Below, one piece after another: positions 15,348-37,600 of a stretch of DNA of 64,000 nucleotides. A program made the position numbers and the translations under genes. How positions within the stretch are numbered: the first letter of the stretch is position 1; the number at the start of each line of letters is the position of its first letter. This DNA comes from Zygnema cylindricum (Eukaryota; Streptophyta; Zygnematophyceae; Zygnematales; Zygnemataceae), in assembly GCA_037447655.1 (NCBI GenBank), contig JBBHKE010001902.1:71756-135755 (forward strand), in the 5' to 3' direction. The notes under the pieces are model-generated. The model did not search any database and was not told the DNA's origin. It saw nothing but the letters and a program-made list of their open reading frames with translations.

Positions 15348-15582
15348 TACACCGCCAATCGCTATTAGGCTATTAGCGTTGTGTACGCTAATTCCGTCCC
15401 GCTTTTTTTTTTAATACTCAAATAGAATTATCCATACTATTTAAAAAAACCTTAATTCATAATTAGAGTGGACGATTTCTTCGAATATTTCCAAATTCCC
15501 AATTAGCGTAAACCACGCTAAATATTCGTATATGGTAAAGAATTTTCTACGCTAATACAGTACTGTAGCGATTGGCGGTCTA
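15348..15582. mobile_element. TA-flanked MITE (type A), 235 bp
   Basis: Left end TACACCGCCAATCGCTATTA; right end tagcgattggcggtcta. The internal sequence has lost similarity to other copies except next to the ends. Confidence 0.85.
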
Positions 15583-16458: not shown

Positions 16459-16644
16459 ATGTACGGATCCATGTCCATAAGATCTGGAATGCTTCAACTT
16501 TGTTGCTTCTTCATTCTTATTGGTCAAATTGTCACAGTTACGGCCATACAGCATGTTGTTGTCCCGCTCGACACAAATAGTTTAAAAAATGTCGGCAAGG
16601 AGAGATGGCACGACGAAACTAAAAAAACTATATCGAGGGATGAG
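16459..16644 (+). CDS. protease-like gene exon 1: signal peptide
   Basis: 62 codons from ATG 16459, ending at GATGAG|gtaaga in phase 0. [19 protein letters not shown] (residues 11-29) is a typical secretory signal core. Met5 and Met11 are alternative starts. The remaining 33 residues are polar and unrecognised. Confidence 0.75.
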
Positions 16645-19600
16645 GTAAGAATTCGTGAAGAAAATTATGAAAATAGATGACATGTCTGGAGTTTGGAGAA
16701 TCATTTTTTCAACCTGTTCTCCAATAGTCATTGTTCGATGCCTACTGTTCAATGTTCATCATTAGATATTAATTTTTAAGTTTTCAATGTTCTATGTTCA
16801 AAGTCTGTAGTTGAAAGCTGATTTTTTATTTTTCCATGTTATATTTTGGTCTCAAGAATGCTTCAATACTCAATGTAAAATGTAAAATGTTCGTATGTTT
16901 GATGTTTTCTTTGAAAGCTGATTGTCGACTGGTCAACATCCATTGCTCAATGTTCAAAGTACAAAAATCCAAATTTTATTCTCTACTGGTCATTACTCAG
17001 TGCTCAATGTCAAGAGAAAAATATTCCATTTTCGGTGTCGCAGAGCGTTGTCTGCAGTTTCCAATGCCGAATGTTCAAGGTTCACTATTCGATCTGTATA
17101 TGCTAATTGTTGAATGTCTAATGTTTACTGTGCATTGTGCATCGCACAATGTGAACAACATTTAATGTTTCATGTTGTGCCAAATGCGTTCAAGCATGCG
17201 TTGTCGAATCCCCATAGTCGGCAGGGCAAGGCTCAATGCTACTTGCAACTTGTCGGAGTTCAATGTTCAGCCAAAATCCTTTGGTTAATGATCAGTATTC
17301 AGATTTGGGCAAGAGTTGCACATTTCGCACATAATTAAAGGTTGCTATTGTTGGTTTACTGATTTATTATTGATCGCTTAGACTTTTTCTTGTTTTATTT
17401 TACATTTATGTATTCCTTGAACAATCGTTGCACTCCCATTTCTTATTTTGTTATTACCGCAGATTAACTGCTGTCAAGGAAAGCCTTATGGAATTCACAG
17501 TATTACGTTGAAGGAGACCAGCCAACCTCGCAGGTATGCCTTTTTTGTATTTGCTGTTTTGTTTTGTTTTCTCAGTTTGACATTTTTTGAAAAGGGAATC
17601 GTCAATATTACTGACAGGTCGTGGAGATTACCCACATTTTTTCGAATGGTGATAAACATACAAATTAAATTCGACTTATTTTACCTTCTCTAGCTTCCTC
17701 ACTTTTGCCGCCGCAATATACATACCTATTGACTTATAGTATATGATATTCTTTGTCTGTGGCACAGCAAATTCTGTATATGTCTTCACAGGCAAAATGG
17801 GATACTAGGGATTTGTCCAAAAGGCACATTTTTTTCATAATTCACAAAAATATGTGAAAAAAACGTTACTAGAGATTCTTCGTACGTCAAAAGAGATAGA
17901 AGCAAAAGCCCAGAAGTCGGCCCCCTCGAGATTTGAATCCTCGAAGGCTTTTGTCCTTCCTTTTACGGAAAATTCCTTCCCTTTGTCTCCTCCTTTCCTT
18001 TGATTTCTGCTTAAAACATTATCTTTAACGAAAGTATTTTTAATGTGTGTTTTTTATATGATTACCTGCTTCAGTCAGCTGATTTCCGATCATTAACTGT
18101 AAAATCTTGTTGTCCACAAAGAACCAAAAGCAGGCATAAGGGACAAAATAAGAAAGTTTTTCCTGTGAATGTCATAAGAAAAGTACGTTACAACTATACA
18201 CTACTCCAGGAACACAAGGAATCATCACACCAACAGACTCGAATGCTTAATTTTGATGTTTTCGTCATTCGAGGAATGAAGATTTGATATAAGATGCTTT
18301 GTTTTCAATTTCTTAAGCTGCCGTACTATTGCCTATCTTTTGATTCATGTCAACTGTATTTCTTATTTTAATTTTTCCGTATTTTTGTGTTTCAGAATCT
18401 GCCAAACTGTTGCGTCGGAAAGGACAGCGGTACATTTGCTGACACAAGCGGATCCACTCCGTGTCGGTACATTCTACATTTCCTGAACTTAATTTCGGAT
18501 TTGGAAAAGAGTTGGATTTTAAAAATGTGATTGTATTCTCAAGTGTAGGTGTTTTGTTTTATTAGTATCCTTTCCGTGACTTACACGTTTATTCTCTCCC
18601 TCTCCCCCTCTCTCTAAATGTTTTACCCCTCTTATTTTGTCTGTTTGCTTTTCTCACCCTCTATCTTTCTCCCATTGTCGTTTATATAAGGTCAATAGCC
18701 ATATCAGGCATTTTCTTATGAATGCACATTTCTCTCAATATTTGTATGGCTCCATTTTCTTTTTGCCATCATTCTCTCACTCATTCTCTTGACCAATGTA
18801 GGATGGGGTGGATGGCGACCAAGCAGATATTATTGCACGTGCCAAAATGGAATCCAAATTTCTGGACAGAAATGTGAAGGCATCCTTCTCTTCGACCAGA
18901 TTTCGGGTTATTGTGACATCCCTCAATATGTTTATTGTCCAATTTCATCTCCTCCTCCTCCTCCTCCCTCCGACAGTTCCAATTACACCACAGGATTTAG
19001 TCTGCCCATTGGTGGCCCGCGTGGTGGTGTTCCAAAAAAAAGTAACTCGTACAGATATGAAAGTTCTGACGTACCTATGGTTGTTAATTGGTCATATCTT
19101 TTCAACGGCGTTCGCAACCAAGGAAATTGCAGTGAGTTTTTTGTTTTCCTCCCAATGTTTAAAAATTTTGGAAGTCTATTTTAATTTGATGCGGCTATTT
19201 AAACTCGGATCTGGAACTCAAATAGTGAAGTTGTACGGTTGACAAGTAAGAACGTGTGTTCGTCAGATGATACCAGGTTTTCAAATGGTTTTGTATTTAC
19301 TACTTTTAACTAAACCGTGAATCGTAATTAGCGTTAATATTTTTTTTCTGTCTGTACACATTTGTCCAATTTTCAATTCAAGACAGCCATTCGTAAGCTG
19401 AGAATATGACCTTTCAATCGCAACCGTCAGATCCACAATCCGACATGTGTGTACGGAGGAAAGATGTTTTAAGCGACGAAAAAAACATTAACGCCAATTT
19501 TGATTCACAGAGTACTTTGTTTACTTTATCTCAACTGTACAGGTATTTATGGTGTAAATCACCCATAGCCTTGAATTTTACCATCTTCAACAACCTCTCA

Positions 19601-22600
19601 TTAAAAGTCCATGTTACTGAAATTAAAAATATATGTATAATTTTTTTTTAAGATTAGGCTGTTTCATCGGCATCTTTGTTGCAGCTGGAATACAAATAAA
19701 AATTGGCCAGAAGAAAGCATTGAGTGGTTGTGCTCTCTTTTCTTGTTTTGTAATTCACAAAAAGGCCATATATTTGAGAACAAGTGGATTGATATAGTTT
19801 AAGTTTAAATTGATTGATGTTTTGTTGAATTGTTTCGGATTCCAAATTCTACAGGTCCTTCTCCTGCAAATGTTTTAAAGTATGATGATTATGAGATTCC
19901 GATTATATAGGCTTTACACATTCTCCTGTAAACAAACAGCCAGAAAAACTCAAAACAAGACTTAAATGAACGACCATGAAATAGACTCATTAAAAAAACA
20001 CTTGGACCTATTAGCTGTGAGAATACCTGACTGATATTTTACAAAATTTCATCGCATGTTCCCTCGTCAGTGAAAGCAAACTCAATGGATGCACACATTT
20101 ATGCAATTTTACGCAGAAACGGTGTCAGCCGTTGTTTATTATCTAATTTTTGTTTTTTTTTACCCACACTGTTTGTTTTAGGTGGCTCTTGGGCATATTC
20201 TTCAGTGGATGCTTTAGAGGGAGTGGCTCTTATAGCCAACAATCTCAATGCTAGCACTAGTGGCGGTAGGCGACTATCTGTAGAACAAATATTGTCCTGT
20301 TCTTCATTTAGTACATGTGATGGAGGTATACCCGAGGATGCATTTGATGGCGTTGTAATTAATGGAGGTGTGGGCTATGAAGGCACTTTTAATGGAACAT
20401 GCGTGAATACAACTGTAAGACACAACTGTGACTTCTGCCCAATCTTTTGACACCTTTCCATCTTTTTTTTATTTTCTTGTGCCGGTTCGTTTGTCATTGT
20501 TTTTCTTTTACATTCAGATGGAATAGAAAATTGATTGGCATCCTCGTTTTGCAGCTTGGGTGGGAGTTCTCTTGTTTTTTATTGTTTGATAATACCATGT
20601 AATCTTTCCCCTTATCATATGCTAAACACGGAAGCTAAACGTGAGGCAAACCCATGTCCTGATATGGCTAAAATATTTGATGATGTAACAGGATTCTATG
20701 AAAGGTTTTGTCGGATGGGAGACGGTGAGAGAGGAAGATCCAACAGCATTGCAACAAGCCGTGGCTAATCAGCCTGTAGTAGTCGCAATTTCGACCGAAG
20801 GAGGACTTAGAGAGTGGAATTCTGTGAGTACTGAGTCTAAACATTGTTTCTTGTAAAAAGTGTTCTGGCTGGACTGTGTATTTTTGAAGAATAGATGGAT
20901 CTATGGACCAGATCATGTTCCAGGACCGTTTTAGAATACGGCTATGGCTGACATTGGTTTGGGAATATTTGTAATCGGGAACATGTCCTTCGTATTTTCA
21001 CTAATGCAAAATCTACGGGACTGAAAAATATTGTAAAACAAATATCCACTGTATTATCAAATAGCATCATTAGTGTCTGTTATCCAAGGAGTCGCGATTT
21101 TCCCCTTGACAGACTCAAGAAAAATTGACCTGGAATTTGTATTTCTTACCCTAAAAAGGAATATAATGCTTCTCAACCAATGTTCCGATACCTATCCCTC
21201 ACTATTGGAATATTCCTTCCTTCCCGTAAGCAAAGTGTTCGATCCCAGTTAAAGCTGCCTGGAAATGGCTTTCTAAGATAATATCGCTAATTTGGCTGTT
21301 TAAATTTTTGACCCAGGCATAAATTATCGTCATTGACGGTACACCGTGTATCGCTATTAGTGTTAATTATTTTTTCGTCACTTAAAACATATTTTTTCCG
21401 TACATACTTGTCCGAATTTCATATAAAGACAGCCAATCGGAAGCTAAAAATCTTGACTTTCAATCGCAACCGTCAGATCCATAAGCCAGCAAGTGTGCAC
21501 GGAGAAAAGATGTTTTAGGTGTTCAAAAAAAAACTAACACTTATAGCGATACACGGTGTAGTTGCGGATAGCGCCAGTTTGTTGGGTAATACGGTGTGCA
21601 CACAGAAGCCGCGCCACTTTTTAGGTATCCGATAAAATATATATCGTATATATGATAAATACATATATAATATGATAAAATATTGTCATTAACCGACATT
21701 TTCCAGTAATCGTCAGAACAGGTTGACAATTTCAACCGCGGTCTCATCCATCTTTTTCTATTTCTATTGTCTACGTGACACCGTACATAAAAAGTAAAAG
21801 TTTTAAGCGCGAGAAAAATACAGAAATACCTGCTAATTTTAGCGCAAAAAAAATAAATTGCGCTTCTCGTATCAATGAGAGGAATAGAATAGAAAAAATA
21901 GAAGTCCCTTCGCCGATATTCGATATGTACTTAATTTTAGGTATTCGATAGTCGATGAATCGCTTCAGTATATTGAGAGCGCGGGGGTTGAGGGGGGCAT
22001 TGCTGTACTGGTTTTCGTACATTGTTTCCGTACTTAAATTGTACTACAATTGTACGGACCATTACCTCCGACCAAATATATCGCGATGATTTTTGTTGGT
22101 CCCGGAGCGATATATCGAGTCCTCTGACCGTTCGATATTACTCGAATCTATCGCGATAAATTTTTTCCCGATAATCCAGGGACATTCAAAAAACAAATAT
22201 AAAATGTCGTTACTTGTAACAAAGAGTTGTGCGATGATTGAAGCTGATAGGAGGGGACAGGGAAAAAAAAAAAAAAAAAAAAGAAAACAGAAATTGTAGC
22301 TGACAAGTAACTTGAGGGCTCTGCAAGCGTGGGAAAAGGGAAGACGAGCTGGACTTTAAGTGAACTGTTAGAGAAAGCTCACAAAACGTAGAGGAAAATA
22401 AAATAAAATCAGATCGAAAAGCTACTCGCCAGAAATGAGGACTCCCTCTCTTGATTTGACCGTGATGTGGGGAAATATAATGGGAATCTTTTTCGCCAAG
22501 ATTTGACTGACAAGACTAGGAAAGTATGGCAAAAACAATATCTTCTTAGCTCCAAGAAGAAAAGAGATTGTTAAGGTTAAGGTACAGCCAGTAGTGGAAG

Positions 22601-25600
22601 CAGGAGGAGAGCACAATCTTACCTGGATTCGCGGCTCTCAAGCACCACTCAAAAAGGCGTCGCCAGAAATATTGTAGATTTTCGGATGTGCGGATACTAC
22701 ACCGTCAATCGGTATCAGTGTTAATGTTTTTTTTTTCGCTTAAAACATCTTTTCTCCGTACACACATGTCCGATTGTGGACCTGACAGTTGCGATTGAAA
22801 GGTAAGATTCTCAGCTTTTCGATTGGCGGTCTCAAATTGAAAATCTGACAAGTGTGTACGGAGAAAAGATGTTTTAAGCGGCGAAAAAAATATTAACAGT
22901 AATAGCGATACACGGTGTACCGGATGTTTAAAAAGACTACCACGTATCCGATGCCTAGCCCTCAAGAGGTCGCCAATCCTCTTGCACTAATTTTCACCTC
23001 GGTCGCAGTGGCCACAATCTGTTTCTCTTTGAATCTGAAAATTGGTCACCAGGTTCCAAATGGAGCCCAAAAGAACTGTTCTTTTTGTTGGAACCAAACT
23101 GTATGGATGGTTGGTACATGCCATTTTGGATTGAAAAATGCCCCCGACAAATTCGGAAAAATCATAGAAGAGGCTCTTAAGGAAGCTGTTTGTGCCCGGT
23201 GCTAACATGGAGTCCACCCTATCGGATTGGAAATAATTGAGTACAACATCGTTCTACCTTGTGAGTTTAACATCTTGAAAAATATAAAATTGCAGAAGCG
23301 TTAGCAGAAAGGTTCGGGCCAAAGTCGACGAAGCTCAAAGATAATGATTGTCAACTGTATTACTAATTATAACACCGTGAATCAAATCTTTGAAATCCTT
23401 TTGTTCCACCGGTTCAGCGTTCTAAAGTTAATTAAATAACCATTCTCGGGTTTGACAGGGTGGACACTACGGTACATTAATAGTGGCATAATTTTCTTGA
23501 GGACTTTTGAAGCACACCTGGTGCACTCTTGCACAGATTTACGATTTCGAGAGTAGCAAGCTGGAGGCGCTTTTTTGAAAAAGTATTTCCGGTGAAATTG
23601 TTAATAGACTTTATTGGTGAACGTAAATCTGGTACTATTCGAGCTTCGCGCTTTTGAGGTTGTTAAAAAGGCTTCGGTGTGCACAGACTTGAGACGAAGG
23701 TGGCCTTGTGAACATGTAAAATTGCGTATCTATGTAGCAAAAAACTGAGTCATTTGCAGTGGTCCCAAAAATTTACCCGACATTGACCTAGTGAAATACC
23801 ACCCAGCGATAATGCTCAAATTCATAACCTTCTTCAAATTCACACATCCGCAAAACGACAGATTCCATACACTTGCCAACATTTTCCAGAAAACATTAGC
23901 CCTTATGCCCTTCCTCCCCCAAGCACTAACCCACAAACCATACCAATAAAAAAAAATAACCTTGTCTTTTCCTTGATGGGCAATGTCTGGCATATGATGC
24001 CCTATTCTGAATGCTTAAAGCCCTATATATGACTTAGCGTCAAAACTAGACAGTCATTACGTTGTGTCCACTTTCAATGTGATGTTTGACACGTCATGTT
24101 TAATTTAAGTTCTCCAATAGTTGTTATCTGCTTAATGTATTCTCTTTTCGACTGTCTATATTTTTCTGTTTTACTAAGATATAATTGACTATTTTTCAAT
24201 GTGCAATTTTTGTAGGCCGATATCTACAATGGAACACATATGGGTCAAAGCTGTAAATTAGACCAAGTAAACCACAATGTTTTAATTGTGGGATATGGAG
24301 AAGGCTATTGGCTTGCTCGAAATTCGTGGGGTTCGTCATGGGGAGATAATGGATATTTTCGAATCCAGCGTACAAATAGACGAGATAGTGGCGTTTGCAA
24401 CATGCTAATGTTTCCCCCTTTGTTCCCCATTATTAGTCCTCAATGTATGTTTAATGGTTGTTTTTCTGATTTTTTTGTAACGGGTCTAACGGGTTAGTTT
24501 GGCATGTGTTAGCTCTTCGACACTGTGGAGTTTCAAAGAATAAGCAAATATATCTCAACACAGAAAGGGACTCGTTTCTTTTTTTTCTGTCTTTGCTATA
24601 TGTTTCTATGTACTTTTGCACAGTCCGTATTAAAAATCAAATTTTGTGCTCCTTTTGCACTATTAAAAGCTACACCGCGAATCGTTATTAGCGTTATGAA
24701 CTCTATATCGGCACCCCAAAATTTTGACATGAATACCTTAAATAGAATAAACTACACTATTTAAGGATGTGGACCATAATCTGCCACGTCTCCTGGCACT
24801 AAATTAGAATGAATGACGCTAATTTTTTCTTTACACTAATAATTTCTCAACGCTAATAACGATTCGCGGTGTAGCTTTGACATTATATGTCGACCGAGAC
24901 ACAAAAAAAATAATAAAAAAGGTAATTTTAATACTGAAAAATATACCTTTGTCTTTGTCATTTCCAGATCCAAAGACTACGACTGCGCGTCGACTACTTC
25001 AATCAAATGAAAATTCGCACCCTCCTGAATATCCGTTTTCACTTCCTCCCAAGAACTCTCCTCCTCCTCCATTGACAAGACAACCTCCTGCCAAAAATCC
25101 ACCTCCACGATATCTCCCTCCCAAAAATCTAGCTTCCCAAAATTTGCCCACTATAATATCACCACCTCCTCTCAAATCCCCTCCCCAAAAACCTCCTTTC
25201 GCTACTGGCCCCATCCAACAACCACCACCTGTCCCAAAATCCCCCTCAAAAAGTCTTTTTCCTGTACTTTCTTCTCCTTTTCCAAAAGAACGTCTATCTC
25301 TAGATTCTACACTTAATCTAAGACTATTATCTGATTTTTCTCCTTCACCTAAATTTTCTCCCCCTCCCCCAAAATTTCCTCCTCCCTTCAATTTTCCTCC
25401 TCCCTTCAATCTTCCTCCTCCCCTTAAATTCCCCCCTCCCTTTGGGTTTCCTCCTCCCCCTAAACCACCTCCATTTCCTCCTAAACTACCTCCATTTCCT
25501 CCTAAACTACCTCCATTTCCTCCTTCTAAACTACCTCCATTTCCTCCTTCTAAACTACCTCCATTTCCTCCTTCTAAACTACCTCCATTTCCTCCTTCTA

Positions 25601-28600
25601 CACTACCTCCATTTCCTCCCCCTTCGCCCGCAAAGGGTTCTTCTCCTCCCCCATCCCAAATACAGCGCAATCCACCGCCCGCACCTTTACGTCCGTAACA
25701 ACCTCTTTAACTTCTCTTCTTGTTTTGCCCGGTCTATTAATATTCTTATTTACTATGCTCTTATCTTTTCATCTCCTTCATTTCCTCTTCCTCTGGGCTT
25801 ATATTTCTTAAACTCAATGTCTGATCACTCCTCTTGTTGTCTTTAGAGTCTCCTTCGCCTCCATATATCCTATTCCGATTTTGTCAAGGGAAGGATCGTT
25901 AAAACAACCTCCATATGTGTTTCCTCCTATTCCCCTAACTGATCAATTTGCACATTCCCCTCCTTTTTTCTACCCTTCAACAACTCCATCTAGTAATCAA
26001 CACTCATCACAGCCTCCTTTGTTTTTTCCTTCTCCGCTTTTATCATATTCTCAACCTTCAGATCCACCAACCATCTCCTCCCCCCATCCATCCAGATCCG
26101 CTTCACAACCACCGTCGTTTCTTGTTCCGTCGCCAGTTCTACCTTCCCCAGTTCCACCTCCCCCTGCAATCGCTTGTCCTTTACTCCATTCGCTTTGTGG
26201 TGGTGGACAGTGTGTGGTGAAAGGATCAACTTCCGACGGATTTCTTCTTTACTCTTGTGTTTGTCCTATCGGCTTCCTGAGGATTGCCGATGTTTTTGGA
26301 ATGAGCATTTGTGTCTACGGTAAGTAAGACATAATTTTATTTCAAAAAGTGTGATAGAAAAAACCATCAAGGTACAAAAGGGTTAAGAAAAAGTAAATAA
26401 GCGCTTAATGCTGAAAAAAAGCCAAAGGAGACTAAGGTAAAGAAAACATGTGAAGACACCAAATCTAACTAGAATAACTGCCAAAACTAAAACTAAGCGA
26501 ATACTGTTGGTTTTACCGAAGTCCTAAATTGAATCTAATATCACAATCCTGTTTTGGATTAATCACATTGTTTTTTTAGCGGTTACTTTATTTTTCTCAA
26601 AAATTCTAGCATTGCTAGTTTGGATTAGCTGAAGCCCGTACGACTTCGCCGCTAATCGTTAGGGTGTGTGCCCATGTAACCGAAACTTTGAAATGTTACT
26701 TTGGATTACTCTTTCCTCCCTTCTCCCCCCAACACTATTTCCCCATTATTCCCCCCAATACTCTTTCTCCCTTATTCCTCTAACACTATTTCTCCCTTCT
26801 TCCCCCAAAATTATTTCCCCGTTCTTCCCCCAACACTATTTCTCCCTTCTTCCCCCAACACTATGTCCTCCCTTCTCCCCCCAACACTCTTTCCTCGCTT
26901 CTTTCCCCAACACTCTTTCTCTTTTCTTCCCCAAGCATTTTTTTTGCCTTCTTCCTCCAACACTCTTTCCTCCCTTCTTCCCCCAACACTTTTTTTATTT
27001 CTTTACCCAACACTATTTCACCCTTCTCCCCCCAACACTATTTCCTCCCTTCTTCCCCCAACCCCATTTCCCCCTCCTTCCCTCAAAAGTGTTTTTCCTT
27101 TCTTTTCCCAACACTATTTCTTCATTCTACCCTCAACACTGTTTCTCCATTTTCCCCCCAACACTATTTCCTCCTTTCTTCCCCCAAAACTATTTCTCTT
27201 TTCTTGCGTCAACACTATTATTTCCTTCACCCCCCAACACTATTTCCTCCCTTCTCCCTCCAACACTATTTCCTCCCTTTTTTCCCCCAACACTTTCTCT
27301 TATCTTCCTCCAACACTATTTCTTCCTTCTCCTCCCAACACTTGTTCCTCCCTTCTTCCCCCAACACTATTTCCTCCCTTCTCCCCCCAACACTCTTTCC
27401 TCCCTTTTTCCCCCAACATTATTTCCTCCCTTCTTCCCCCGACCCTATTTCCTCTCTTATCCTGCCGAAACTATTTCCTCTCTTCTCACCCGAACACCCT
27501 TTCCTCCCTTCTTCCCCCAACAATATTTCTTCCCTTCTCTCCCCAACACTCTTTCCTCCCTTCTTCCTCCAACACTCTTTCCTCCCTTCTTCCCCCAACA
27601 CTATTTCTCCCTTTTTCCCCCAACACTATTTCCTCCATTCTTCCCCCAACACACTTTCCTCTCTTCTTCCCCCAACACTATTTCTCCCTTTTTCCCCCAA
27701 CACTATTTCCCCCTTTTCCCCCAACATTATTTCCTCCCTTTTCCCTCCAACACTCTTTCCTCCTTTTTCCCCCCAACACCTTAAACCTCAATCGCCTAAT
27801 TGCAAGCCCATGTAATGTGATTGCGAGAAACGGTCGAGTGAGAAAGAGCGGGAGAGACGAGGACGATGTAAAATTTTGCAAAAGGACCCATGAATGAAAG
27901 TGGAGGTCCGAACCCCAACGAATTTTTTCCGTACATGCTTGTCATTTTCGTACGTACATGCGCGTGACGAGCAGGGAAAAAAATAGCGTGTACTCTCTGT
28001 CGTTCAAAATATATCGAAGACGTTTCACGCGTACAATTCCGTTTTGCTATTCGTCAATAGGTTATTATTTTAATTAAAATCAGGTAGCAATTTGATTCCA
28101 GTGCAAGTGTGAAGATGAGCTGGCGTGACGCAGAAGTGGGTCGTGATGATAATAACGCCAAATTGACATACCTTCCAAGCTCTAAGATGACGCAAAATGT
28201 ACTTTGGTTCTTGCCCATTTTTAGTACGGCATAAGATTTTCTCGTTGCAAGTCCCATTTTCTGTGAAAACGACGGGAAAAAACCTTTACTTGAACACATG
28301 GGCACACACCCTTATTAGTGTTTAAAAACAATAATTTTAACATTAGTTGTATGTACGACAAGTATGTTTTGGTACAGAATGTCCACGTGGCATATCATTT
28401 CTACAACGTTAAGCGTGATCCATGTAAACTAACTTCAGTACCTTTTAGCCGCCGGAAATTGCGAGAACATTACTTAATATAAAGCATAAATAAAGTAAAC
28501 AGAAATCCTGTTAAATTTTACTCCAACTTATGTGTTTCGTACTATTTCCGAACCCTTAAAGTACGTCTTTCGCCGGATGCTGTCATGTTGTACACTTGTA

Positions 28601-31600
28601 CTTGAAATAATGTCGATGCCAACTTATGTGTTTCGTACTATTTCCGAACCCTTAAAGTACGTCTTTCGCCGGATGCTGTCATGTTGTACACTTGTACTTG
28701 AAATAATGTCGATGCCAACTCAGTAGACACTATAAAGTCGACACACAAATTGGCGTTAAGTGCCAAATTAATGTTAATGTTTTTTTTTTCAACAGAAAAT
28801 ACACTAAATAGCATTATTAACATTAAAGTAGTGTTTACGTTTTTTTCTTTTAACACTAAAAATGATTAGCGGTGTCCTGTTGGACAATCCTTGAAACCAT
28901 TCATTCCGCGATTCTTTATTGAAAGGAATGTCTTACAAAATTGAGGTTTTCCTTTTCTTTTTTGAGAGAATTCATAATCAATTTCCTCACAGTCCATCCC
29001 AGTCTTGTTATTCTCGTGCCTCATCAACAGTCTGTCGAATGGAAGAAACAAGATTGTTAACATTTTTAATTCCAAATAATATGCTCGACCTAACAAACCC
29101 GCTCAAATATGAATATAAACAAAGACAAATAGTCAGCTAACGCTCATTGGAGCTACATGGGTTGCAGGGGATGTGTGTGGTAAATACCCATTTAACCCCT
29201 GTGGAATCGGTAAATGCCGAAACGATGGATATGGAGGCTACACGTGTACCTGTCCTAAGGGGTTTCGCGCCTACCAAGGGGCAACCAATGACACTATCTG
29301 TAGTTCAGGTAGGCTTCCTGCCTTCGTGACCAGTGGTGACGCTTACCCCTAAAAATGAGGTTATCTCTGCCTTCTACCTGTTGAAATACACTTAAAGCAT
29401 TCTACACTACTTGTTGTTTCTACACTATTTTTAGAGTCCTACTCGCTACGCTATAAGTCTAGCACTACGGTTTAGCGTTTTGTACATTATTTGTGGAATG
29501 TACAGACCTTTGTTAGAGTTGATGATTCTTACGTAGGAATCCTTTTTAGACTTTGATTCCTTTTACCGTAACTAGTCGTACCTTCCTAAGTTACGCCTTA
29601 GATTAGAAGTACCTTTTAGAGTTTTTTTGGCTACCTCTTACTTTGTCTTACTATAAGACTCTCTTGTGTCGTAATGTAAATCAATTAATTGAAAAGACAC
29701 TCAAACGACAAACCTCTCACTTGTTCCTTTGTTTATCGTTACTCTCCCTTGTCTTTTCTATCTCGGCCTTTTCTTCTCTTTTGGCCTATCTTTGCTATTT
29801 TGTCATATTAGAAATTTCGGCTTTTCATGGCCTCACATTCAATAGGTTATGGGCCTAGCCCTTCGTCTGTCTCAAACTCAAGGTGACATATTCTATGATT
29901 GTAAATTTCAAATCCAGCATTTGTTTTCTTTCGAAAAAAAATTGGGACACATTAATGGCATTGTCACGTTGCCTGTCCTTCCTGACGCTACTGTTGCCAC
30001 TTTTGCTGCTGCTCAGGCAGCTGTCGCTTCATGGGTTGAAAAACATTCTGTAGCATTTTCTCATATTGTCCTTTCTTTGGACGGCCAAATTGTGAATCGG
30101 ATTCGCGCTGCGACCACTTCCCATGAGGCATGGCGGATTTTGTGCCGCGCCTACGAAACCAACACTTGGCCACATTGTTTGGCGCTACTTCGACAGTTCA
30201 ACGGTGCTTAAAAAGATAAAAATGATTCTATGCTTGTTTTTATTCAACGAATTGAATCATTGGCTAAACGACTTAACACTGTCACACATGAAGATCTAAT
30301 ATGTACTATTTTGGGCAGATTACCTCTCTCGTTTGACTCTTTTGCAAGTATGTCAGTACTAATGCCTCCTCGGTCATGCTGTCAAATCTCACTAACCGTT
30401 TGTTACATGAAAAGATGTGCTTGAATCTTAACAAACCTGTCGTTTCTACTGGCGGTTCGGCTTTTGTTGTCTTTTCCCCCAAGATACCTTTCAAACTTGC
30501 AAGACCTCAACTCTTTTGCAAATATTGCAAAGAGCGTGACCACGTGGTCGATGTGTGCCCCGCATTGATCAAGAAACATGAAAAAGAACGTACGGCTAGG
30601 GGACCGCGAGGACTTCCTTCGATAAATCCAAATCCGAAGTCCTTTGCGTATCCCCACGCCTACACGCCGCCAGTTGGTCATGCGGCGCACGCGACGGTCG
30701 ACTTCAATCTTCCGTACGGCCCACCGCCACCGTGGTACCCTACTCCTCATTACTACTACCCTCCGCAAAATCAAGCAGTTTCATTTTTTCCTCAAGACCT
30801 TCCAACCGCCAACCAAAACGTTGGATCTGCGTCACTTGCAATTGTCCCTGTCCCATGCAATTGTCCCATGCAATTGTCCCTGTCCCAGATGTACCTCCCC
30901 ACTTCCACCCTTAGACTATGGGTACGCCTTTACTCAATCAGGCAATCCTTCTGATTGGCTAATTGACTTTTGCGCTTTTCACCACGTGAGTTTTCGACGT
31001 GATATGATGCTTAATGTTGTTCCCCTTGAAATTCCTTTATGCATTTATTTGGGGAACAACATGATTTTGACTTCCACTCTCGTTGGACAGGTGCATATTA
31101 ATGCGGATTCGCACGCCTCTCGTTCAATAATCTTGGACAAGGTTTATTTTGTTTCTGGCCTCAAAAAGAATCGTTTTTCAGCTAGTTAGGCTTTGCGCCA
31201 TGGGAGTTTTGGCGTCATCACTGAATCCAACGTTCAATTTTTTTTTTCCACTATGGACCTCATTGGTAGTGGCATTGGGTTGGGCAATCTATATCTTTTT
31301 TTTTTTTTGCAATGATATTGCTCATGCTTCTTTAGCCCATTCTCCCTCTTCTTCCTCTTTTCTTACATGGCATTTTCGTTACGGCCATCTTAATGGTGCT
31401 AGCTTAGCTTCCCTTGGAAAAAGGCTTCTAGGAATAAATAAATTTAATGAAAGCAAAATTGACTTTTATCTTGGTTGTGTCTTTGGCAAAATGCCTCGCT
31501 TACCTTTTTCTTCTTCTTCTTCTCGCTCTTTAGCTCCCCTTGATCTCATTCATAGTGATGTATGTGGTCCTATTCCCATTCCAAGCCTTAGTGGCGCCTC

Positions 31601-34600
31601 TTATTTTCTCACCTTTATTGATGACTTTTCTCGCTTTACATTCCTTTACTTTATGCGTCATAAATCCAAAGTTTTCACCCATTTTCAACATTTCAAAGCA
31701 CTTGTGGAAAATCACTTATCATCTCGCATCAAAACCTTCCGCACAGATAATGGGGGGGAATTTGTTTCCAATGATTTTTTCCGATTTTTTACTAATTGAT
31801 GGCATTTTTCATCACAAAACTTCTCCCTATTCTCTGCAGCAAAATGGTGATGCCGATCGATTAAATCGCACTCTCATGGATATGTCTCGCTCTCTTCTCC
31901 ATTTTGCTTCCTTACTATTTCATTTTTGGGCCGAAGCATTACTAACTTCCTCTTATATTCGAAATCGCTCCCCAAACTCTTCTCTTTCTAACAAAACCCC
32001 TTTTGACGCGTGGCATGGTACTAAACCTGATGTCTCTCACTTTCGCATTTTTGGGTGCGAAGCATACTCTAAATTCCTTCCCCCCTCTAATGAAAAATTA
32101 GGTGCTCAGGCCATGCACGGCATTTTTGTGGGATATTCCCCGAATTCCAAAGCCAATCGTATTTGGTGTCCTTCTTTACGCCGAATTATCACCACTCGTG
32201 ATGTTATTTTTCATGAGACTCCTCTCTTACGTACGCTTGTACCCGATTTTCCCATCACTCCTCTACCTAGTTTATTTCCTCCTTACAAAACTGTCCCCTC
32301 TAATTCTGTTACCACCTTTCTGTTACCACCTTACCTACGTCCCCTTTAACCCCTTCGCCAACTACGCCCTTTAATCCCTCACATATCTCCCATTTCCTCA
32401 GATTTTTCTTTTTCTACAAATTGTGTCACTTCCTCCAATTCCGACGATTTAAATTTCTTGGGTACGTTTGAGGATTTCCGGCTGTCCACCCCCCGGTCCA
32501 CCCCCTCTCGGTACAGTCCGTTGACAGTGACGCGACGGTCCTTGACGCTATAATTTTCCCTGTCGCTACATCGCGTATCGTTATTAGTGTCAAAGTTTAA
32601 TACATTTTGAAGAAAATTTACCGTAATTGATGCTAATTAAGAATTTGATTTTTTTCAAAAAAAAGGTGTATTCTAATTTCGGCGTTTATGCTAATTTGGG
32701 AACATCAAAAATGGAATATTCTCCGTACGATTATATACATTAATATATGTATCCGTACAAAATATTAGAAATCGTACGCCGTCGCAAATTTAAAATATCC
32801 GTACATGCTATACTAATTTACGTTTCTGACTAATCCTGTTTTTTTTTAGCCCACGTTCTTATGCGTTCGCGTCTGATTTAATTTTTTTTTGTAAATTTTC
32901 ACTTGAAATGGTACAATTATGTACGGTCTGATATCGACCATACACCACACTATTTATATTTTATTGTACTTTCAAGCTTTACTTTATTTTATACGGTACC
33001 TTAATTAACGTCAAGGAAAAATTAAAATCATGTATCTTATTTGAAAAAAAAAATCAAATTTTTAAGAACCCAAATTAGTGACTTTGACACTAATAACGAT
33101 TCGCGGTGTAGTGACGCTACGGTCTTCCTTTCGACAAATTTACTTCCACGTCCTTATGGTCTTCCTTTCGACAAATTTACTTCCACGTCCTTTGGACGTT
33201 ACGTCGCCGGCAAGATTGGTTTGCAATTCCGTACTTATTACGCCGTTGGCACCACCTGACGAACAACTTGCCGTACGACAAAGTATTCGTCTTTCCCAAC
33301 CAACGTGGAAGATTCGTGAGAATCTTGCTCACGCCAACCTTGGCGACGTCAAGGATCCTACCACATTAAATGCCGCCTTGAAACGCCTTGATGGTGACAA
33401 GTGGCTGCTCGCTGCTACACAACAGTACGACGCATTAATGTCCAACAATACCTAGACGCTTTGTACTCTTCCACCAAATCAGCGTGCGATTGGTTCCAAG
33501 TGGGTCATAAAATTAAACGGTTGGCAAATGGATCTGTCGACCGTTACAAGGCACGTTTCTTTGCCAAACAGTACTTACAAACATAGGGCGTCGACTACAA
33601 CGAGACTTTTGCCCATGTCGCAAAGTTTGACTCCATCCGTACGATTTTGTCCCTTGCCGCTCTTCATGATTGGGAGTTACAGCAACTCGATGTCAAAACT
33701 GCTTTTATTCACGACAGTCTTGCTGAAGATATTTTGATAGAACAACCACCTGGTTACGCTGTCCCTGGTACTGAAACCTTTCTGTCATTTACGTAAGTCT
33801 ATTTATGGTCTTTAATAGTCACCTAGAGTATGGCATCAGGCAATTGTCGCAGCATTAATTTAAAAAGGTTTTAGGGAAATCAGTGCAGATCTTGGAATTT
33901 ATATTAGAGGTACAAGTGACCAATTAATAATCATTATTATTTACGTCGATGATTTAATTCTCGTAGGTCGTAGTAAGTCCTCCATTCATCAGGTCAAAGG
34001 TGTTGTTCTTTGGTCTAAAATAGACTGCAGAAGCCACCCAAACTATCATGCAAAAAGCTAAGCAAAAATAGGTCGACGAACAATCATTTGAAATGCATCC
34101 TCCATTTAACATACAACAACATTTAGGGTTTCATGGAATAATCAACATAAATAAACCCTATGACAACATCTAAGGTTTGATGGAATAATCGACATAAACA
34201 AACCCTAGGACAAATGCATAAACAATGCATATCAAACATATATAAAAACATAAATAAATAATAACACACAAATGCATCACACATAAACAAGAGTATAATC
34301 AAAGTATAATCATTATATCATTCAAAGTGCATGACCTAATCGGCAACCCTAAAAGTCTACATCTTCGGTCCCCACTTTACTAACCAGCATTGATTAATTA
34401 TTCTAATGAAGCTCAAATCTATATATACACTTGTGAGCTGTTAACAAATCACTAAGTGTCAAAATAACCAACGTAAATTACGTAACTGTCATTAAATAAA
34501 ACTAATCGTAAGCGTACACCTGAAAGTCAAGCAATCGTAAGCGTACACTTGTCTGCAAATACGACACATAAATTAAAGTGTCGATATCCTCATTAATCAC

Positions 34601-37600
34601 GTAAAATATAACTATTTTAATCAACACTAAATCATTAATTCAAATAAGACAAAACATTGATGCTTCAAATATTTACACCGACGCATCCAAAAATCCGCGT
34701 CATAAGTGACAACTTGCTTAGTCACTTGTCGATAAGTCCACGCAGCAAGCCGATGTCACATACTTACGGCCCACTTGATCATACATTCTCAAAATAGTGT
34801 GATCCATCAAAAAGCGGCGGACGCCGTCCGCCTTCAAAGTACAACACAATCCACTCGTTGAAATAATACGGTACCATCAAAATCTTGTCCGTACCGAAAA
34901 CCGCGTACTTCGTCATAAATGCCGCACGTCAAAATTGAAGTATACTTATCCAAAAAGATTCTTTTGTACCATCGCGTACTTTCCATAATTGTCGCCCGTC
35001 ACATTAGATTCCGTACGGTCAGCGTACAATTTAAATATTTCAAACATTTCATATCGGATCGCGAAGCGATCCGCCGTCCATTTCCATTTTGTATTCCGTA
35101 TTATTCGTACGCTTCTTCGCGTCACTCAATTTGTAATTTACGTCACTTTAAATTCATTCGTACAATTACCCCCCAAACTACAAATCCATTCGAACCACCA
35201 TATTCATTTGGTTACTAAGTATGCGAACATGCAAGCGCACGCATGTACGAAAATGAATCTTCCAAAAACAACAAAAGGCATTCTCTCTTCCTATTGGCCT
35301 ATGACCGATTTAGGAGATCTTGACTATTGCTTAGGTATCACTATTCTATGTCAAAGGTCTGCCCGCATTTTGCAAATGAGTCAAGAGCATTACATTTTTG
35401 ATCTCCTTGAGCATTTTGACATGTCCGATTGCAATTCCATGCCTACTCCCCTTGATCCCAACACCACTCTCACCAAAATGTCCTCCGATGGGGTTGCCAA
35501 AGGAGATATAAGCTCACTCTATCAACTGATTTTAGGAAAATTAATGTATGCTATGCTTGGTACACGGACGGATATTTATATCGTTGTTTGCCTTTTGTCT
35601 CAATTCTTGCATTGTGCCACTCAAACCCATCTCCAAGCCGCCAAACGTGTCCTTTGATACCTCTAAGGAACAAAGCATCTTCATCTCACTTTTTCCCATC
35701 CTTCTCCTCCCTCGCCTTCCTCCTCTTCCTTTTCTCTGGACACTTCTATTATTGGTTTTTGCGATGCGGATTGGGGAATCAACTCGACGATCGTCGCTCC
35801 ATTTCTGGTGTATGTTTTACTTTAGATGGTGGCCTTGTCTCTCGGTCGTCCCGCAAGCAAGTCACTGTTGCTCTTTCCTCGACGGAGGCGGAATATATAG
35901 CCGGCACTACCGCCACAAAATCAGCTATTTGGTTCCGACGCCTTCTTTCCGATCTCTCTTTCCCTCCCTCTTCTCCCACCTTCATTTTTTGTGATTCTGA
36001 AGGGGCATTAGCTCTTATAAAAAATCCTATCCTTCATACACGCACTAAGCATTTTGATATTCAATTTCATTTTACGCGTAATAAAATTCTTGATGGCACT
36101 GTCTCTTTCTCTCATTGTGCCACCGGCTCTCAACTTTCCAATTTTCTCACAAAACCTCTTCCTCGCCCCTTTTTCATCATCAGATTTTCTATGCCGATCT
36201 TCGTGACTAACCATGCTTTAATCAAGGGGGGGTGTTGAAATACACTTAAAGCATTCTACACTACTTGTTGTTTCTACACTACTTTTAGAGTCCTACTCGC
36301 TACGCTTTAAGTCTAGCACTAAGGTTTAGCGTTCTGTACTTTATTTAGTGGAATGTACATACCTTTGTTAGAGTTGATGATTCTTACGTAGGAATCCTTT
36401 TTAGACTTTGATTCCTTTTACCGTAACTAGTACCTTCCTAAGTTACGCCTTAGATTAGAAGTACCTTTTAGAGCCTTTTCGGCTACCTCTTACTTTGTCT
36501 TACTATAAGACTCTCTTGTGTCGTCATGTAATATCATTCAATCTAAAAGACACTCAAACGATAAACCTCTCACTTGTTCCCTTGTTTGTCCTTGCTCTCC
36601 CTTGTCTTTTCTACATAGATGTCTCATGCGCATAAAACGCACGCATGAAACGCCCCAAAAATTACGAATATGCGCATGAAACAAAATTCAAAACTTTATA
36701 AAATGCGTTGACCGAATTTGACTTTATAAAAAAATAAAAATAAATAAAAACATCTAACAAAAAAAACTACTACAACTCAATCAAACTTATTTTTGTTTTA
36801 CATTAATACGCATACTTTTTAATTAGCGTTAGCTACTGTGACTTCTTTTAAAAAGTGGAATGAATGAATTGTTTGTACAGAAGTACAAAATAAGTGTCAA
36901 GTAACGGCGTCGACAGGGAAGTAGAGTGTGTCGCCACAGAAAAGCGTACTCAGATTTGATTCCAAGTCATAAAGAGGAAGGAAAATCACAAAAACCTGTT
37001 CGCACATGTTCAAGTGTCGAATATGTGAACACAAACTATAGGTTTTGTTTAATTAGCGTTTATTGCTCCAATTTCGACTTTTTAAATATTTAAATAGAGT
37101 AGTGTAAAAAATGAATCAGTTCGTACGTTTGTACAAACGTACTGAATAAGCGTCACATAAAGGCGTCGACACAAGAAATTGAGTGCGTCGCCACGAAAAA
37201 GTGCATTCGGATTTGAATCCCTGTCACAAAGACGAAGGAGAATCACGAGAACCTGTTCTCACATGTTCAAGCGTCGAACATGTGAACACAGTGGCTACAT
37301 CCAAATTAGTGTTAGGTGTGTCTTAATTAGCGCTAGTTTTTGACTTTTTGTTGGCGTTAGGCCTTTAACCCAAAATAGAGTTTAGCTTTAATAGCGATTC
37401 ACCGTGTACATTCAACCCTATATTTGAATATTCCCGTACATTCTTATCGTACATTGCGTCCGTACAAAACGTATACGCATTTTACGAAAGATTCAAAATC
37501 TACAAAATATAACGAAATTTCGTAAAAATGTCAAGATTCTTACGAATGTGACATCTATGCTTTTCTATCTTGGCCTTTTCTTCTATTTTGCCCTATCTTT

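Follow-up and report, generated by a model that had tools for sequence, protein, structure and literature searches.

In this study, we analyzed a 64 kb stretch of the Zygnema cylindricum genome (C1427:71756-135755, hereafter the window; source assembly of 353 Mb in 2,689 contigs), which carries a multi-exon gene with a papain-type peptidase domain (C1A) in which the catalytic cysteine is replaced by serine. Exons 5 to 8 of this gene (Table 1) join to 307 codons free of stops, and all introns are of the GT-AG type; the 3′ border of exon 5 reads ATTGCA/gtgagt, while exon 6 is bordered by ttttag/GTGGCT and ACAACT/gtaaga. Exons 5 to 8 matched the Pfam family PF00112 (Peptidase_C1, C1A) with 130.7 bits and an E-value of 1.1e-37 at a cut-off of 20.7, so the papain assignment is not a chance result. 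The papain motif NQGxCGSCW appears here as NQGNCSGSW, with a TCT codon for Ser in the place of Cys25, and the domain thus lacks the Cys nucleophile of a cysteine peptidase. The rest of the catalytic frame is present, namely Gln19 (CAA, 19119-19121), Trp26, His (CAC), Asn (AAT) and Trp177. No I29 propeptide was detected by Pfam in exons 5 to 8; this propeptide is usual but not universal in papain-type peptidases.

Among the paralogues for which the upstream exon was found, the intron directly 5′ of the G-x-C-W motif has the same position in L016 and L018-L021, and also in L007 and L008 with other residues. Therefore, the junction 19131/20182 is regarded as the normal one, which speaks against an alternative junction restoring the Cys, named by a sequence-only reading of this DNA as a way for its claim to fail. 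A frameshift 5′ of exon 7 (other frame at 20637-20702) was also considered and dismissed, because exon 7 of the closest paralogue, on contig C1898, aligns to the GFVGWETV frame. Direct reading, exon joining and the PF00112 match confirm what that reading had claimed, a Ser at the catalytic Cys position with His and Asn intact.

Table 1. Parts of the window gene (window coordinates)
Feature	Position	Strand	Evidence
Probable first coding exon, signal-peptide-like hydrophobic stretch	16459..16645	+	Open reading frame (ORF) and hydropathy only
Probable upstream exon, Cys-Cys motif	18396..18464	+	Similar ORF in C1898 (L016), E 7.8e-6
Exon 5: CBM14-like motif, short Pro-rich linker, C1A start through NQGNC	18802..19131	+	C1898 match E 2.5e-31
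Exon 6: GSWAYSSV..., carries substituted Ser (TCT 20187-20189)	20182..20414	+	Exon joining, paralogue comparison
Exon 7: ...REWNS	20692..20823	+	Joining; C1898 match E 2.8e-16
Exon 8: triad His (24273-24275) and Asn (24321-24323)	24216..24444	+	Joining; C1898 match E 3.7e-34
Exon 9 region: RRLLQ, then long Pro-rich stretch; ORF end 25698	24968..25697	+	ORF in phase with exon 8
EGF-like module 1, end of Pro-rich ORF	26171..26319	+	PF00008 17.6 bits, under cut-off 21.5; C1898 match E 1.4e-12
EGF-like module 2	29168..29309	+	PF00008 19.4 bits, under cut-off 21.5; C1898 match E 4.3e-14

In the window gene, the C1A domain is followed by EGF-like modules, and counterparts in C1898 match both EGF-like exons. 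The CBM_14 match in exon 5 reached 22.5 bits with the trimmed motif and 21.8 bits in a longer query (cut-off 22.1). Relatives in the same genome carry PAN_2 (26.0 bits, cut-off 21.1), F5/8 type C (45.3, cut-off 27.8) and CBM14-like motifs; a LysM match in the C1898 sister gene lies just under the cut-off (20.8 bits versus 20.9). The F5/8 type C domain of C1898 is located between C1A and the Pro-rich/EGF part (L016 5569-6081, reverse-strand numbering). The description of the gene product as membrane-anchored found no support. The transmembrane-like ORF at 46283-46486, recognized by eye, lies 17 kb past the last EGF-like exon, with copia-type remains in between and a separate LRR/EGF-like exon adjoining it; it was not assigned to the gene. 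A simple hydropathy scan found a hydrophobic window in the last 40% of the chain in 4 of 95 homologues.

The copia-type remains represent a broken long terminal repeat element (29850-36235) 3′ of the second EGF-like exon, in which gag, integrase, reverse transcriptase and RNase H-like ORFs were recognized by eye. The LRR/EGF-like exon (44055-44444; match to L023 382-891, E 1.1e-11; LRR label by eye), together with Pro-rich and transmembrane-like ORFs up to 46486, probably belongs to a separate receptor-like gene. Inverted-repeat ends resembling miniature inverted-repeat transposable elements (TACACCG..AATCG / CG..GGTGTA) were seen at 15348, 21547, 22698-22906, 24671-24860 and 33097, several of them in introns of the window gene.

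A PF00112 profile search of the Zygnema genome gave at least 150 scored matches out of 303 candidates. From scored matches, a search with exon 6 and further fetched stretches, a sample of 63 C1A loci was compiled (7 duplicate loci excluded; near-identical pairs such as L012/L020 may be haplotypes). The nucleophile, readable in 46 loci, was Cys in 41, Ser in four and Thr in one, while His and Asn were retained in every one of the 56 loci in which both could be read. Exon 6 as query returned itself, C1898 (49%) and five others at 45-47%. C1898 (L016), the closest paralogue, has CSGTW with a Thr codon (ACG) and retains NHN and RNSWG; the other five paralogues found with exon 6, on C2201, C1803, C2114 and two on C1983, have Cys. 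Ser is thus not fixed among the nearest paralogues, and it recurs elsewhere. The other three Ser genes, which are more distant and lie on C1321, C139 and C2493, read TGT G/GT GCC AGC TGG (CGASW), with the codon AGC and with His and Asn retained. No single silent step leads from TCT to AGC, and an approximately unbiased (AU) test rejected joining the TCT-Ser/window group with the AGC-Ser group (p 7e-11; groups named after the tree was seen), which together imply that Cys was lost at least two times in this genome.

Over 204-209 codons, the ratio of nonsynonymous to synonymous substitution rates (dN/dS) was 0.19 for C1321/C139, 0.153 for C1321/C2493 and 0.155 for C139/C2493; for the window gene and C1898, dN was 0.36 and no ratio is given, as saturation at synonymous sites is too strong (pS 0.80). 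Purifying selection thus acts on the pairs that were compared. What is supported is a Ser-His-Asn papain domain in a green-lineage gene that is both intact and constrained. That the Ser stems from an assembly error or a decaying pseudogene is highly improbable. TCT is one base off TGT, a single assembly was used and transposon-like sequence lies in and beside the introns, but the sister gene is also without Cys, its ACG codon is more than one change away from both TGT and TGC, the four exons have an intact frame and intact splice sites, and nonsynonymous change is far below synonymous change. As separate observations in the same family, L022, L028, L034 and L068 form a subfamily with Cys present and Trp26 and Trp177 replaced (GACS/GACA, NSFG/NSYG), and the upstream C1A exon of L032 reads VRDQGAWS, with Trp at the Cys22 disulphide position.

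An initial search for related proteins yielded 31 rows, the top two of which (P0001, P0002) come from a EukProt transcriptome; their C-terminal half is like that of the window clade, but they were rejected as Ser orthologues because their ORFs start just after the nucleophile. The second search gave 29 rows including four Closterium proteins (three Ser, one unreadable), and the third, with Closterium P0049 as query, gave 97 rows, whose Ser share is no frequency estimate since the query itself carries Ser. Among the homologues, mostly from Closterium, the nucleophile was readable in 81 of 94 and was Cys in 57 and Ser in 24, with no other residue. At residues 25-26, the 89 Closterium rows comprise 54 Cys-Trp, 9 Ser-Trp, 13 Ser-Ser, 1 Ser-Ala and 12 unreadable cases. 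In Mesotaenium, P0150 has Ser (GASWAF) and P0146 and P0147 have Cys; Ser also occurs in two C1A proteins of metagenomic origin, P0015 and P0026, and the residue call for P0066 rests on a truncated start. In Closterium NIES-68, the neighboring gene numbers CLOM_g14360 (Ser), 14366 (Cys), 14369 (Ser), 14371 (Ser) and 14372 (Cys), as well as CLOM_g10158 (Ser) and 10159 (Cys), suggest that Ser and Cys forms sit in mixed tandem arrays.

Seven homologues were scanned by Pfam, and none showed I29. C1A was found with leucine-rich repeats (LRR) and/or legume lectin in P0075 and P0077, with LRR and LysM in P0148, and with EGF and LysM in P0146 and P0150; in P0100 and P0120, lectin but not LRR exceeded the cut-off, and EGF remained under it in P0075, P0077, P0100 and P0148. 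The multi-domain relatives with the best matches come from Closterium and Mesotaenium. These proteins (e.g. P0049, P0075, P0120, P0146, P0150), which bear no functional names, resemble the window gene in having EGF-like modules after C1A and, where scanned, no I29; unlike them, the window gene has a CBM14-like motif in place of LRR or lectin. The fusion of C1A to LysM has been described in lectin sequences outside vascular plants, and the nucleophile is not mentioned in the accessible part of that report (PMC6362431). Searches of open-access literature listed no account of a Ser-for-Cys exchange in these zygnematophyte C1A multi-domain proteins.

For the tree, 109 rows were reduced to 88 by removal of near-identical ones and then to 81; P0046, P0026, P0015, P0014, P0153 and the own loci L022 and L030 were left out as long or foreign, among them the Ser-bearing P0015 and P0026. 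With the nucleophile column blanked, the careful tree needs at least 8 changes between Cys and non-Cys; counted alone, the own rows need 2 and the Closterium rows 5. This parsimony count does not separate gain from reversal, gene conversion between copies could alter it, and its rows of closely related Closterium strains are not independent events. A single Closterium Ser clade was rejected by the AU test (p 4e-7; here, too, groups were named after the tree was seen). From these sequences, the switch from Cys to Ser or Thr is recurrent in algal multi-domain papain proteins carrying sugar-binding modules, and such repeated, independent exchange makes it probable that it is useful rather than accidental.

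As to its use, we give somewhat better than even chances to the view that the papain domain of the window gene persists chiefly because its cleft binds peptides or proteins, which would make it a pseudoprotease with substituted nucleophile, and that sugar-binding modules hold it in the wall or mucilage. The gene would encode a secreted multi-domain protein of CBM14-like motif, C1A, Pro-rich stretches and EGF-like modules, in which the nucleophile has changed from Cys to Ser, and to Thr in the sister gene; the sugar-binding modules would then place the cleft in the wall or mucilage, where it would bind its ligand after loss of peptidase activity. This is consistent with the Thr of C1898, which would hardly serve as a catalytic nucleophile here, with the lack of I29 matches in window exons 5 to 8 and the seven scanned homologues, with intact frame and splice sites at dN/dS values of 0.15-0.19 in the AGC-Ser genes, and with a Closterium Ser clade of 10 rows that has lost Trp26, as compared with 3 of 59 Cys rows. 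In SERA5 of Plasmodium, the exchange Ser596Ala gave no phenotype, while Ser596Cys yielded an active peptidase (PMC4671257), and N-delta triads, to which that of papain belongs, are described as having Ser only very rarely (PMC9825947). The retention of His and Asn, from which selection had been argued earlier, does hold in a constrained gene but is no proof of catalysis, since SERA5 keeps both residues as well (PMC4671257).

Several observations weigh against a binding cleft. His, Asn, Ser176 and Trp177 are kept in 21 of 21 substituted tree rows and Gln19 in all 13 readable ones, a conservation that, judged from the sequences, exceeds the needs of mere binding. Across the own census and the homologues, Cys was replaced by Ser only, and once by Thr. 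The putative wall location has to be reconciled with EGF-like modules under the Pfam cut-offs, a marginal CBM14 match and the finding of no LysM, LRR or lectin module in the window gene. A different caveat bears on common kinship. On both the quick and the careful tree, the window clade (7 own rows: window gene, C1898 and the five Cys paralogues) is not part of the group that unites Closterium, Mesotaenium and most of the remaining own rows; the careful tree places it with canonical plant papains, and the program warns that long branches, those of the clade and the outgroup, meet there. Similarity of modules is therefore part of the basis for kinship with the Closterium and Mesotaenium proteins, and the exchange in the window gene is a separate event in a neighboring lineage.

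The conserved frame in all substituted rows and the restriction to hydroxyl residues would favor a working Ser-His-Asn enzyme. As in silicatein, its reaction would be a changed one, and glycoproteins or polysaccharides of the wall would be the substrates of such a serine-type hydrolase, esterase or acyl transferase. If at least 6 Cys-derived origins all led to Ser, the rough probability is 5e-4 when one-base missense changes are equally likely (2/7 to Ser) and 0.09 when Ser or Gly alone fit, both figures assuming a Cys ancestor and independent origins. Also, families with a conserved Ser in place of Cys have been counted in a review, which terms them poorly explored (PMC10318531). Serine catalysis by the window domain is possible as far as its residues indicate; such an enzyme nevertheless appears somewhat unlikely given the Thr of the sister gene, the Closterium Ser clade without Trp26 and the N-epsilon rule (PMC9825947). 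In the accessible part of their report, the authors of PMC4671257 know of no peptidase with significant activity left after a Cys-to-Ser exchange, a point tempered by the residual activity cited for congopain and bleomycin hydrolase (PMC10318531). A natural Ser25 is known from cathepsin L of a fish parasite, EnCL2 (PMC5840727).

The window domain can be compared with several known systems. Silicateins of sponges share the papain fold and Ser-His-Asn with it, but scored 78.9 and 77.3 bits, below the plant papain ficin 3 (100.7 bits) among the matches listed, and silicatein descent was rejected as plant papains match better; the window gene gives no sign of a silica role such as that of silicateins (PMC4671257, PMC9825947). 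SERA5 shares the Ser nucleophile with His and Asn kept, has modules different from those of the window gene and was judged non-enzymatic (PMC4671257). Descent from SERA found no support, with no SERA chain among the best 60 of 162 or the best 60 of 174 rows. TINAG and TINAGL1 are cathepsin B-like animal proteins, unlike the window domain. They are described as inactive papain-like matrix proteins (PMC10318531). The RD21-type papain-granulin protein L001 of the same genome shares C1A with the window gene and differs in having Cys, an I29 propeptide (58.6 bits) and granulin (23.5 bits, cut-off 20.9).

In tomato, the secreted papain-like protease Rcr3 acts as a guarded decoy sensed by the LRR protein Cf-2 (PMC7468133). 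As a one-chain counterpart, a dead or weak papain domain might bait protease inhibitors of parasites and be read by modules of the same chain. The fusion of C1A to LRR, legume lectin or LysM in relatives, the large set of PF00112 genes and the neighboring gene numbers of Closterium Ser and Cys forms would suit such an integrated decoy. It is quite unlikely for the window gene, in which no LRR was found and neither kinase nor anchor was seen, and it is pure analogy; Rcr3 and Cf-2 are two separate proteins and Rcr3 is a Cys protease (PMC7468133). A wider proposal, which we likewise regard as unlikely, is that zygnematophyte algae possess single-chain surface proteins in which a papain domain, repeatedly turned from Cys to Ser or Thr, is fused with LRR, lectin and chitin-binding modules, and whose Ser forms might be decoys for parasite inhibitors or true serine-type wall enzymes.

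Papain domains with Ser in place of Cys were already known in sponges, malaria parasites and a few other groups. Here, the exchange recurs in green-lineage proteins, where Cys and Ser forms are closely related to each other. Of the sequence-only reading, the Ser-His-Asn papain domain in a green-lineage gene has stood, the membrane anchor has found no support, and the case is not a lone one: Ser or Thr recur in the same genome, and the view that further green-lineage cases are unknown is outdated by the Ser-bearing proteins of Closterium and Mesotaenium. The results draw attention to the large LRR/lectin-papain-EGF-LysM proteins of zygnematophyte algae, whose natural Cys/Ser pairs make it testable whether Ser in the N-delta triad of papain is catalytic or the mark of a binding domain.

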